Shown piece after piece: positions 5,406 to 42,480 of a DNA stretch of 64,000 bases. Positions within the stretch are counted from its first letter, which is position 1. Each line of letters opens with the position of its first letter. The notes beneath the pieces were generated by a model. The model had not been told where the DNA came from. It searched no databases and was given only the letters and a program-made list of their open reading frames with translations. Made by a program: the position numbers and the translations under genes. Source of the stretch: Dromiciops gliroides (Eukaryota > Chordata > Mammalia > Microbiotheria > Microbiotheriidae); the NCBI RefSeq assembly GCF_019393635.1, contig NC_057861.1, positions 62,312,532 through 62,376,531 on the forward strand. The letters are read 5' to 3'.

Positions 5406-5439
5406 AGGCCATGGTGAGAGATTAATAACCATGAGCAGT

Positions 5440-33507: not shown

Positions 33508-33589
33508 CTTGATATTTCCATCTGCCTCCGTCCCACACTCTAAGCATTTATCTCTCATTCTCCCCGTACCCTGCACTCAGGAAGAGAGC

Positions 33590-34135
33590 CCCTGGGCCCT
33601 CTTGGACCCTTCCACCTGTGCCTTCTCTTTCGCTCTCCTCTCCTCTTCACTCCTTCCCCTCTTGTGCTTCCCCTCAGTCTCCTTCCTCACATCTGTTTCT
33701 CCCCCAATCCTTTTCAGTGGTCTTCATTCTGTCTCATCTCTCGCTCTAATTTCTCTCTCAATCTATGTCTTCCTCTCTTCTCTTTCGGTTCTGTCGCTCT
33801 CCTCATCTCTCGGTCAGGTTCTTTTCTTGCCTTCTCCCCTCCTCTCTCTGCCTCCCTTTTTGTCTTTCTGTGTCCCCCTCAAACCCCCCATTTCTTTCCC
33901 TCTTGTGCTCTCTCTGACCTGTCTGATTTCCTCTCATTCCTTTCTTCTGAGTCTGTCTGCGTCTGTGTCTCCCTCACTTCTGCCCTCTCCCTCTTTCTCT
34001 CTCCTATTCTGCCTCTTCTGATTCTCTATCTCCTCACCTCTGTCTGTCTCTCTGTTTCTATTTCTACATGTGTCTCTCATGGTTTCTGTCTCTCTCCTCG
34101 CGCTGCTTTTTTTTTTTTCATCTTTTTTTTTTTTT
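33590..34135 (+). repeat. polypyrimidine tract, about 545 bp
   Basis: C/T make up nearly the whole + strand, ending in T11 and T17 runs at 34108-34139, directly upstream of the CpG block that precedes the Met-only exon. Confidence 0.85.
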
Positions 34136-34248
34136 TTTTGTAAAATCGCGAAGGTGGATCGGCTCACACTGCAACCCGGGTCCTAGAAGGAAATCGCCCG
34201 AGATGATTAAACACTGAGCTAGCAACTCCAACCCCGGGGACACGGAAT

Positions 34249-34360
34249 TGGGGGGGGGGGGGAAGGAGGGCGGGGGGAGGGCCGAGGGGAGGTCCCTCCG
34301 TTGGGGGGTGTTGGGTGTTCTGTTTTCCGGAGGGGGGGCGTGGAGTTTCTCTCCCCCCTC
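34249..34360 (+). other. G-run cluster, potential G-quadruplex
   Basis: At least eight runs of three or more G's in 110 bp, including runs of 14, 6 and 7, ending about 60 bp before the NFIC start codon. A matching C-run follows at 34352-34373. Confidence 0.6.
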
Positions 34361-34419
34361 CCTCCCCCCCCCTTTTGCCGGGACTGCTACTTGCTCGGCG
34401 CCGGCCGGATCCGGGGACT

Positions 34420-34422
34420 ATG
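34420..34422 (+). CDS. NFIC: NFIC alternative first coding exon: initiator Met only
   Basis: What is seen: a CpG-island sequence ending ggatccggggactATG, with the ATG followed immediately by the splice donor GTAGGT (34423-34428). What is known: mammalian NFIC has a transcript form whose protein begins with Met joined directly to the shared second exon (DEFHPF...), which starts in phase 0. In human, as I recall, this promoter lies about 7 kb upstream of the MYSSPLCLTQ exon; here the spacing is 6.85 kb, same strand. Inference: this is the coding end of that exon, giving an NFIC isoform without the ten-residue N-terminus. The 5'UTR should extend left into 34140-34419; its start cannot be set from sequence. 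The second exon, with the DNA-binding domain, lies beyond the window. A chance ATG-GT cannot be excluded by sequence alone. Confidence 0.72.
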
Positions 34423-35699
34423 GTAGGTTTCACGACACTTTCGTTTTCGCCGGACTTTTTTTTCCCTAGCTCTGATCAAAAGTTTGATTGTCTGAGGGAG
34501 GGGGTAGAATGTTGGGGGGGGGATGTCCAATGTTTGGAGACTGGGGGGTGCGTTAGGAGGTCTAAGGAGGGGCTCCCCTGCGTCCGCCTGGGGGTAGAAC
34601 AGGAGCCAAGGCAGGGGGTCGGATGGGGGTGTCCACTAGTATCTCTCCCCCCCCCCCGTGGTTCCCTGTAGCCTGCCTGCTGCCCCCACATCACGGAGAA
34701 GGGAAAAGACAGGGCGGTGGCGGTGTGTCGGAGTTAGATTTGGTGTATGAGCCGGGGGCAGAGCAGGACAGGGTCGGGGCTGGGGGAAGTGTTTCCCCCC
34801 AAGAAGATGCCGGGGACCGCTCCATCCAAGGAGAAGGGGAGGGGGCTTCACCCAAACGCTGGGGGCGCGGGCCGCGGGAGAGGGGGAGGGGAGGTCAGCC
34901 CCAGGAGCTAGCAGCGAGGAAGAGGAGAGGGAGGGGAGGGGATAAGAGAAGAGGGGAGGGAAAAAAAGGGGAGGGGAGCTGGGCGGGGGGAGCCGCCGCA
35001 GCCCCCCAAGCCCACACCGCAGGCAGGAGAGGGTGGATGTAGCGGAAAATGGCCGCTGTGGAAGGGGGCGGAGAAGGACCGCAGCCCCGAACCGACTTGA
35101 ACTTGAAAGGAAAGCAAGGGGAGGGAGAGGGGAGGGGGAAGTGCGTCCGGGGCCTGCGGGGCCTCCAGCTACTGGAGCTGGGGTGCCCCCTGCCCCTAGG
35201 GCCCCCCCCCGGCCTATCACCCACCCCTTGTGGCCTCCCCGGGGCGTTCTTCTCCGCCTACCCCCCCCCCCCCGCCCAGGCCCGGGAGGGCGCTCCACGC
35301 TCCATCCGCAGACGCCAGCTCGCCGAGCTGCTCCTCCCCTCCCCTCGCTTCTCCTCTCCTCCCCTCCCCTCCCCTCGCCTCTCCTCCCCACGCGCGGCCC
35401 CGAGCCTGGCCCGGCAGGGGGAGGGGAAAAGAAAAGGGGGGCGGCGGAACTGCCCCGTATCCAGCCTGTCCCCCCGGGACAGCGTGGACTCCCCAAAGTT
35501 CCAGGGAGCCCCATCTTCAGCAAAGTTCACTTAGACTCTGCAACTTGAGGGGTAGCCCCTAGCATCAGAATCATCCCTCTCTTAGGGTCTGGGGGCTTCC
35601 TCCTCTACGAACTCAGAGTCTACGGGAGTCCTGAGGGTAGAAGGGGGCTCCTGGGCCCCATCTGTCCCCCTCGCTTTCCCTCTCCCCAGTCTGAAATCC

Positions 35700-36150
35700 C
35701 AGTGCATCCCGTCGCCTCCCCCCACCCCCACCACTCAATTGCCATTCAGCTTTTCATCCCTTCCTTTCTTCCATCATTCTTCCTCTTCCTTCTTTCTTTT
35801 CTCTCCTCTCTTCCCTTTCTCCCCTTTTCTCATCTCTTCCTCACTGCCCCCTCTTTCCCCCACTTTTCCCTTTTTTCTCTACTTTTCTCCTTTCTCCTTT
35901 CCACTTTTCTCCCTTTCTCTCCTCTTCCCTTCTCTCCACTTTCCCTCATCTCTCTCCTCTCCTCCAATCTTTCCTCTTTTTTCTCCACTTCGCTACTATC
36001 TTCCCCAGATACTCTTCCTCTCATTTCCTCTATTTTGTCTCTTTTCTCCTGTTCTGTCTTCGTACGTTCCTCTCTTCCCATCTCCTTTATTCTCACCGCC
36101 CTTTCCCCTCCTTTTCATCTACCTTATCTTCTCCTAATTTGCCCTCCCAG
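35700..36150 (+). repeat. second polypyrimidine tract, about 450 bp
   Basis: Almost pure C/T on + (many ttctcctctctt-type words). With the 33590-34135 tract it brackets the Met-only exon. The Ser/Phe/Pro-rich open frames it creates are not genes. Confidence 0.85.
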
Positions 36151-39959: not shown

Positions 39960-40800
39960 TTCCAGGATTCTGTCCCAGTTAGCTACAGGTGTGGGGTTTT
40001 AGTGGGGGAGGGGGTGGAAGGAATGAGACTTTGGCTGGGGTGAAGGGGCAGGTGTTCTGGGCACTCCCTGACTCAGAGATGTCCTTCAATCTCCCCCCCC
40101 CCAAGTCCCTCAACCACCACCCCTCCCACTCTGGGAAACTGCATTTTCTAGAGCTGGAGGAGGGTAGGGGCTTCCAATCGCTGGAGCAATCCACTTCTCA
40201 TTCCTGGGCCAGAGATGTGGGAACTTCTCCTGAGCAAAGGGGGTGCCCTGGGTCCACTAGTCTTTCCCCATCCACAGTTTTCAATAGGGTTTCAGAATTT
40301 TCCAGCCTTTTATTTTTACATTCCTTTTTTTTTTTTTTTGCCGCACCTCCCCCCACCAATCCCCAATTATTCCAACCCGGGCTGACTCCCCTAGCAGAGA
40401 GCAAAGAGCTGGGGGAAGGGGTGGGGGTGAACCAACACTGCCCCTCCTTTATTTAAAGCAACATTTCAAACCTCCACACCTGCTTGGGGAGGGGGTAACT
40501 GGATTGTTAAGGTTTGGTTTCCCCCTCCAGATTCGACCCCTTTCTAGCCCTCGCTCCCTCCCCGCTGCTGACCCTAGCCAAGGTCTCTTATTCCTGCTCA
40601 TCATCAGTAATAATTATTACTAATTATTATTAAGCGTTGTTCCTTAGTCCAGGGAGGGGAGGGGAGGTTGGGGTGGGGGGAGGCGAGTTACGGTTTCCTC
40701 CTCTCAGGCTCTCTCGGCTTTTTCCGCGTTTCTTTGAAAGTTGGATGTTGGAAAGTGGGTGGTTCGTGTTTAAAAAAAATTGGGGGGAGGGAGGGAGGAC
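39960..40800 (+). promoter_or_regulatory. unique sequence upstream of the second NFIC promoter
   Basis: No repeats recognised apart from a T-run at 40326-40339. It contains cacctg E-box words, tttatttaaag near 40449 and, at 40606-40621, the perfect 16-bp palindrome agtaataattattact followed by more TAATTATTA words, typical of homeodomain sites. Conservation would need alignment. Confidence 0.4.
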
Positions 40801-40881
40801 TGAGATTTCCGAGATCCTGAGCCAAGAAAGAGGGAGAGAGAGGGAGAGAGAGAGAGGGAGAGGGAGGGAGAGAGAGGGAGG

Positions 40882-40965
<84 letters not shown>

Positions 40966-40968
40966 GAG

Positions 40969-41013
<45 letters not shown>

Positions 41014-41165
41014 GGTGGAGGAGGAGGAGAGAGACTGAGAGGAGAGGGAGACAGAGAAGAGACAGAGACAGAGAGAGGAAAGAGACAGCAAGAGGAGAGA
41101 GACAAAGAGAGAAGAGACCCAGAGACCGGGAGAAGGACAGAGACGGGGAGCGAGACCGAGGCGGG
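40790..41165 (+). repeat. polypurine tract with (GA)n core
   Basis: A/G-rich on + over about 370 bp; 40880-41008 is nearly uninterrupted GA. It ends about 100 bp before the NFIC start codon at 41266. Such mirror-symmetric tracts can adopt triplex (H-DNA) structure. It generates long Glu-Arg and Ser-Leu frames that are not genes. Confidence 0.95.
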
Positions 41166-42480
41166 GTGGGGGGTGGGGGGGTGGGGGTGAACATATGACT
41201 CAGTAACTTTGGAGCCGCGGTGTTTTCTCCCCTGCGAACCCGGGAGCCTCCCAGGCCCGCTCGGCATGTATTCGTCCCCGCTGTGCCTGACCCAGGTAAG
41301 GCAGTCCCGACTTGGCCCCCCTCCCCCTTCCTCTACCTCGTCCCTGCAAAAATAGTTTTCCAGTTGCAGGGAGAAGGGGCGAGAAAAACACACACACACA
41401 CAAAAAGGCGGGATTTCGTCGTCTCCTGCGGCTGCCGGGGCCACGGCTGCCAGCTCCCCGCCCCCCCACCCCCACCCTAGGGCCCCGATTTTCCGGGGCC
41501 AGGTTAAATGGGGGGGGGAGTCCTCTGGGAGGGCTTCTGTATTGTCAGCCCGAACTGGGGGCACTGTTTGAACTGGGACCTCTAAATCCTTTTGGGGAGG
41601 GTAGACGGCTGCGGGGTCCCCCTCCCTCTCTCGCGGGGGGCCTGGGAGCGCGCGGGGCTTTGGGAGGAGGAGGGGGGCTCAGCGCACGTGCGCTGGGAAG
41701 AGGCTGGGGGATGGGGGCGGCAGAGTAATGCGGGGGGGAAAGAGAAGGGGAGGGGGCAGGCGGGCTGGGCGCCTTGGCAGAGTGCGCAAAGTTGCAGCGG
41801 CTCCGGAGCCGCGAAGTTTGGGGGCCGAGCGCTCCTGAGCGCCGCGTTATACCGGGGGAGGGGGTTCGTTCGGCTTCTCCCCGCCGGTAACGCGCTGCAG
41901 CCCCCCTCCCCCTCCTTGGAAGGGGGCCCAGACCGAGATAGCTGGGCGCGGGCAGCCACCCCCACCCCCTCCGGACGGGGGAGGGCGGGGGGGGGGCAGC
42001 TGCTGTGTGTGTCCAAGGGGGACGGGGGGAGGGGGAGGGAGGTCCTGTGGGCTCTCCGTCCTAGCCTCCTCCCCCTCCCCCTCGATCGAGCGCGGCTTCT
42101 TATCGCCCGCATCCATTCTGGATTTTCAATTATTGATCAGCGGCCGGCGGCCGGCGCCCGTTAACCCTTGCGGCGCCGCCCGTTCCCTCCTGGGACCCTC
42201 GGCCCACCCTCCGGGAGAGTTGGAACAGCTTCCCCTCCCCCGGGTTGCCCTGCTTCTGTGACTTGGGCGCCGCTCCTCAAAGAGTCTCGGTTTTCCGTGG
42301 CCAGGGCTCCCCCGTGTCTCGCCAGCTTGCTGGGCCCCCTCCCTGCGGTGTCCCGGGCCGTGGGCTTCCGCAGGCACTGCAGAGGCGGCGGCCGCGGCTC
42401 TGCTTCCCGCTCCCTCCCTGCAGCCAGGCTGGGTTGCTTTCCTCCTCCCCCTCCCACCTCCAGAGTCTTAGACTGCTCTA
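41120..42480 (+). promoter_or_regulatory. NFIC: NFIC second CpG island / promoter
   Basis: Dense CpG from 41140 through about 42420 (for example gcgcacgtgcgctggg near 41680, gcggctccggagccgcg near 41797, cggccggcggccggcgcc near 42140) spanning the MYSSPLCLTQ exon and the first 1.1 kb of its intron. An AP-1 word TGACTCA sits at 41196-41202, 64 bp before the ATG. No TATA box is evident. Confidence 0.75.
41266..41295 (+). CDS. NFIC: NFIC first coding exon (MYSSPLCLTQ)
   Basis: Nuclear factor I C is a nuclear transcription and replication factor that binds TTGGC-N5-GCCAA as a dimer through an N-terminal DNA-binding domain. What is seen: ATG TAT TCG TCC CCG CTG TGC CTG ACC CAG, ten codons ending in phase 0 at a strong donor (GTAAGG, 41296-41301), in a CpG island. 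What is known: MYSSPLCLTQ is the N-terminus of mammalian NFIC; the paralogues begin differently (NFIA MYSPLCLTQ, NFIX MYSPYCLTQ, NFIB MMYSPICLTQ), and the double serine picks out NFIC. The next exon, encoding the DNA-binding domain, should begin DEFHPF; none of its long open frame appears downstream here, so it lies past 64000. The start context cggcATGt is moderate. An alternative first exon lies 6.85 kb upstream. Confidence 0.93.

Follow-up and report, generated by a model that had tools for sequence, protein, structure and literature searches.

The closest described counterpart of the site considered here lies in the same gene in human, where an isoform of NFIC begins MDEFHPF and has its first exon ~7 kb 5' of the exon that encodes MYSSPLCLTQ. 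A further possible alternative N-terminus in the NFI family, likewise replacing the residues of canonical exon 1, is the NFIX start MLPSCRLQ, which has a human counterpart. Alternative transcription starts have also been reported for mouse Nfix in the portions of PMC10241085 consulted. With regard to gene layout, the consulted portions of PMC554972 describe, as a common design, a leader exon that ends in the start codon, with the rest of the protein supplied by exon 2.

We examined a window of 64 kb, by which we mean the whole stretch of DNA analysed (C1:62312532-62376531, in a genome of 3.3 Gb and 17 contigs), in which an ATG followed directly by a splice donor is located 5' of canonical NFIC exon 1. 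The site shares with the human MDEFHPF isoform the gene, the junction with exon 2 and the predicted N-terminus, and its distance from the canonical start is 6846 bp as against ~7 kb; the species is different, and the exon is here a prediction from genome sequence. Unlike the NFIX start, which is a continuous extension of exon 2, the NFIC candidate is a spliced first exon. It has the same arrangement as the system of PMC554972, but whereas in the latter, in the portions consulted, the promoter is the main one of its gene and has a polypyrimidine start, the present site would belong to a promoter that a gene for a transcription factor uses as an alternative.

We consider it probable (roughly 0.85) that positions 34140-34422 constitute an upstream alternative first exon of NFIC that supplies Met to exon 2 and has a role in promoter choice. 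The feature is most likely the already known NFIC upstream first exon, found in the present species and of ordinary layout. A sequence-only reading of this DNA had regarded a one-codon coding contribution as unusual, a view that the common design described in the accessible part of PMC554972 does not support; we rejected a rare layout on the same ground, and that part of the text does not say that the codon is always exactly ATG followed by GT. Among the papers listed on NFI first exons and isoforms, titles and abstract openings yielded no description of an upstream NFIC exon, and a literature match to DEFHPF, in the text available, concerned NFIX. Nothing on the upstream exon appeared in the accessible portions of PMC1277823, PMC4528330, PMC6886504, PMC10241085, PMC12634031 and PMC7546476, and PMC3241690 was without terms for it.

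Several features of the sequence indicate that the gene is NFIC, in agreement with the sequence-only reading. The coding part of canonical exon 1 specifies MYSSPLCLTQ, which we take to be the NFIC form of the N-terminus, and lies on the same strand as the candidate exon (Table 1). Common exon 2 begins at window coordinate 68874, 4.9 kb beyond the window end, at a phase 0 boundary that reads ...GACTTCTAG/GATGAGTTCCACCCG (tag/GATGAG). Its 177-residue translation matched Pfam families PF10524 and PF03165 as well as nine distinct PDB NFI chain sequences, the best being 9xvd, Nuclear factor 1 C-type, at 391 bits; the best scores for the other types, from chains of unequal length, were 363 (A-type), 352 (X-type) and 324 bits (B-type).

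Table 1. Positions of the candidate upstream first exon of NFIC, its parts, canonical exon 1 and the site compared in NFIA (window coordinates unless otherwise given)
Feature	Position	Strand	Remarks
Candidate NFIC upstream first exon, last codon ATG its sole coding codon	34140..34422	+	5' bound 34140 is a guess of the sequence-only reading
Candidate initiator ATG	34420..34422	+	A at -3; G at +4 in unspliced sequence and likewise in the exon 2 join
Splice donor GTAGGT	34423..34428	+	4.09 bits; U1 pairing -8.3 kcal/mol
Possible upstream ORF, 4 codons, ATG ATT AAA CAC TGA	34203..34217	+	relevant if transcription begins 5' of the ORF
Canonical NFIC exon 1, coding part ATGTATTCGTCCCCGCTGTGCCTGACCCAG (MYSSPLCLTQ), then donor GTAAGG	41266..41295	+	
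NFIA ATG/GTACGT	L006:2543 (G000:C4:17631542)	minus	3.5 bits; CpG o/e 0.76; 6272 bp before NFIA exon 1

Direct reading of the sequence from 34407 gives GGATCCGGGGACT ATG GTAGGTTTCACG, which confirms the ATG at 34420-34422 and the GTAGGT that had been noticed immediately 3' of it, from 34423 (GGATCCGGGGACT-ATG-GTAGGTTTCACGAC). When 34422 is joined to exon 2, the result is ATG GAT GAG TTC, or MDEFHPFIEALL..., which reads M-DEFHPF in frame. The proposed joining of Met to the common exon 2 is thus supported by the layout, that is, by a phase-0 donor, an in-frame MDEFHPF and a good start context. The proposed loss of a ten-residue N-terminus stands in that MYSSPLCLTQ would be replaced by M, but the net loss is nine residues, since one of the ten canonical residues is itself the initiator Met. 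Followed 5' from 34420, the frame runs into a stop (TGA) at 34204, and no in-frame ATG lies between the two positions; two more ATGs, at 34068 and 34079, would be of consequence only in a transcript that begins 5' of them.

The next in-frame Met after the joined start is residue 40, which falls inside the stretch covered by solved DNA-binding domain chains, and a transcript from the upstream promoter would therefore need the ATG at 34420 in order to encode the whole domain. In all nine of the matched PDB sequences no more than two residues precede the first Asp, indicating that NFI domain structures exist without the canonical N-terminus. Moreover, an NFIX construct comprising residues 13-175 is described, in the portions of PMC12854730 consulted, as binding DNA similarly to the full-length protein. 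On these two grounds we rejected a cost of the shorter N-terminus to DNA binding; the DNA-binding domain of the predicted MDEFHPF product is expected to be intact, so that the consequence of the upstream exon would be one of promoter choice.

We infer the following course for the transcription, splicing, translation and role of the candidate exon. A CpG-enriched promoter near 34140-34420 would be transcribed to give a leader with the start codon as its last three bases. The donor at 34423 would then skip canonical exon 1 and splice to exon 2 at 68874, generating Met-Asp-Glu-Phe-His-Pro-Phe, and the product would be NFIC with M in place of MYSSPLCLTQ and with its DNA-binding domain intact. Its likely role would lie in promoter choice, which would set the site and timing of NFIC production and the leader of the mRNA, rather than in altered protein activity. 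A one-codon first exon of this kind would separate promoter choice from protein change and leave the known function of NFIC unaltered. Recognizing it would aid NFIC annotation, as gene finders that require coding length in the first exon would miss such a promoter.

Alternatively, the donor may be used in an exon that is non-coding, with the leader joining exon 2 or canonical exon 1 and translation beginning elsewhere. Consistent with this, an acceptor-like CCTCCCAG lies shortly 5' of 41266, where the 34420 ATG, if joined, would be read in a different frame from MYSSPLCLTQ, and initiation at 34420 could be reduced by the upstream ORF of 4 codons at 34203. However, the ATG is in frame and in good context when joined to exon 2, and a start at the next in-frame Met, residue 40, would truncate the DNA-binding domain, as that residue lies within the solved domain chains. 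We therefore regard a non-coding exon as unlikely.

Donor scores are approximate. On this scale the donor at 34423 is weak to modest (G at +4, T at -2), with 4.09 bits and -8.3 kcal/mol compared with 7.67 bits and -12.8 kcal/mol for the donor of canonical exon 1. Although it is the only plus-strand donor of at least 3 bits within 34000-35700, plus-strand donors of at least 4.09 bits number 49 in the 64 kb (0.77 per kb, or about one per 1.3 kb), and a single one in 1.7 kb is thus unremarkable, being about as expected. The window contains 108 ATGGT strings (50 on the plus and 58 on the minus strand), and at three of them the donor scores 4.09 bits or more: 5411 (plus), 34420 (plus) and 46797 (minus). 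For a post hoc test, 2000 first-order Markov sequences were generated with 33900-34699 as the model, and 1.25% of them had, on the given strand, an ATG with a donor at least as strong as that at 34420. The ATG-GT string by itself is weak evidence, and it is position and phase that make the case: the site is on the NFIC sense strand, in CpG-enriched sequence, 6846 bp 5' of the canonical start, and its phase fits exon 2. That an ATG and a donor-like GT met by chance in GC-rich sequence and never formed an exon end is very unlikely, for although the donor is weak and its score is reached by two of the 50 plus-strand ATGGT strings (the other, at 5411, having a CpG o/e of 0.26), such a coincidence is expected in only ~1% of 800-bp stretches of like composition (a post hoc figure), and the site fits in strand (sense), in phase, in CpG context and in its location 5' of exon 1.

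The CpG setting that had been claimed for the 34420 ATG was borne out, if modestly. The CpG o/e was 0.69 in 34001-34500, 0.47 in 34501-35000 and 0.54 in 35001-35500, and a value of 0.54 in the 500 bp centred on the ATG indicates that the CpG block is modest. The stretch 35001-35500, with a GC content of 0.72, contains a YY1-like ATGGCCGC at 35049 and Sp1-like sites and has no plus-strand donor of at least 3 bits; it may act as a further promoter or as an enhancer. This GC-rich stretch with its YY1-like site is unexplained by the candidate exon and counts against our reading of it. On the minus strand, the only donor of at least 4 bits in 33601-35700 is GAG/GTGAGG at 34037 (5.9 bits), by way of which a divergent transcript from the CpG block is possible.

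A whole-genome search with NFIC exon 2 returned four matches in three NFI genes, with NFIX in two pieces. From their sequences we take these genes to be NFIC, NFIA (by its N-terminus) and NFIX. NFIB was not among the whole-genome exon 2 matches, possibly owing to assembly, masking or limits of the search. The NFIX N-terminus is printed as MYSPYCLTQDEFHPF in the accessible part of PMC12634031. At NFIX exon 2 in the present genome (L001, minus strand), where the exon 2 stretch is partly N, an in-frame MLPSCRLQ lies just 5' of DEFHPF.

Sense-strand ATGs with a donor of at least 3.4 bits number two in the 30 kb that run up to NFIA exon 2, including the ATG/GTACGT site in Table 1, which was picked out post hoc. 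The 80 kb that lead up to NFIX exon 2 contain one, with a CpG o/e of 0.0 (0.54 for NFIC by the same measure), and an ATG with a donor in CpG-enriched sequence was not found in those 80 kb. Since the NFIC and NFIA sites each combine an ATG and a GTANGT-like donor with a CpG-enriched patch 6-7 kb before canonical exon 1, the two genes might share an ancestral one-codon first exon that predates the vertebrate NFI duplications. If so, promoter choice in the NFI family would have gone along with a minimal Met-Asp start for a long time. We consider this shared ancestry doubtful, and the likeness between NFIC and NFIA amounts to a lead rather than a finding. In human, one NFIA isoform has an extension with Met as its last residue, immediately ahead of DEFHPF, which would fit such an ancestral exon; an NFIA N-terminal peptide, from an isoform with WWM at its end, did not turn up in the 30 kb that precede and end at NFIA exon 2.

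Sequence comparison of the NFIC and NFIA sites showed weak similarity in the downstream flank and none upstream. By blastn, the best match of 33901-34700 to the NFIA 30 kb had an E value of 0.75, in a test of low power, given that even NFIC coding exon 1 matches its NFIA counterpart at no better than E 0.038; in a search against NFIA and NFIX upstream sequence, NFIA was absent among the nine matches listed. In local alignments of -20 to +40, four of 462 NFIA ATGs scored as high, the NFIA site included, owing in part to the ATGGTA in common, and with longer windows the counts rose to 50 of 462 (-60 to +60) and 136 of 461 (-150 to +50). Aligned in the same way, the NFIX ATG/GT (tx 33082) did not stand out (750/1082, 558/1079 and 507/1079). 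Without the common ATGGTA, +6 to +40 gave 10 of 458 NFIA ATGs, 55 of 1489 patch positions and 19 of 938 window ATGs, and +6 to +60 gave 57 of 458 NFIA ATGs. The upstream flanks were no better than chance (282/458 for -40 to 0 and 175/458 for -100 to 0).

Outside the candidate exon, 34696-34800 has 64.5% identity over 110 bases (blastn, E 0.001) to sequence ~0.5 kb before NFIX exon 1, a similarity that may reflect common base composition. A scan of the window against Rfam gave no matches at the gathering score. Finally, the candidate exon is immediately preceded by a long CT-rich tract (33580-34140), and canonical exon 1 by a long GA-rich one (40790-41160) that is in part a GA microsatellite.
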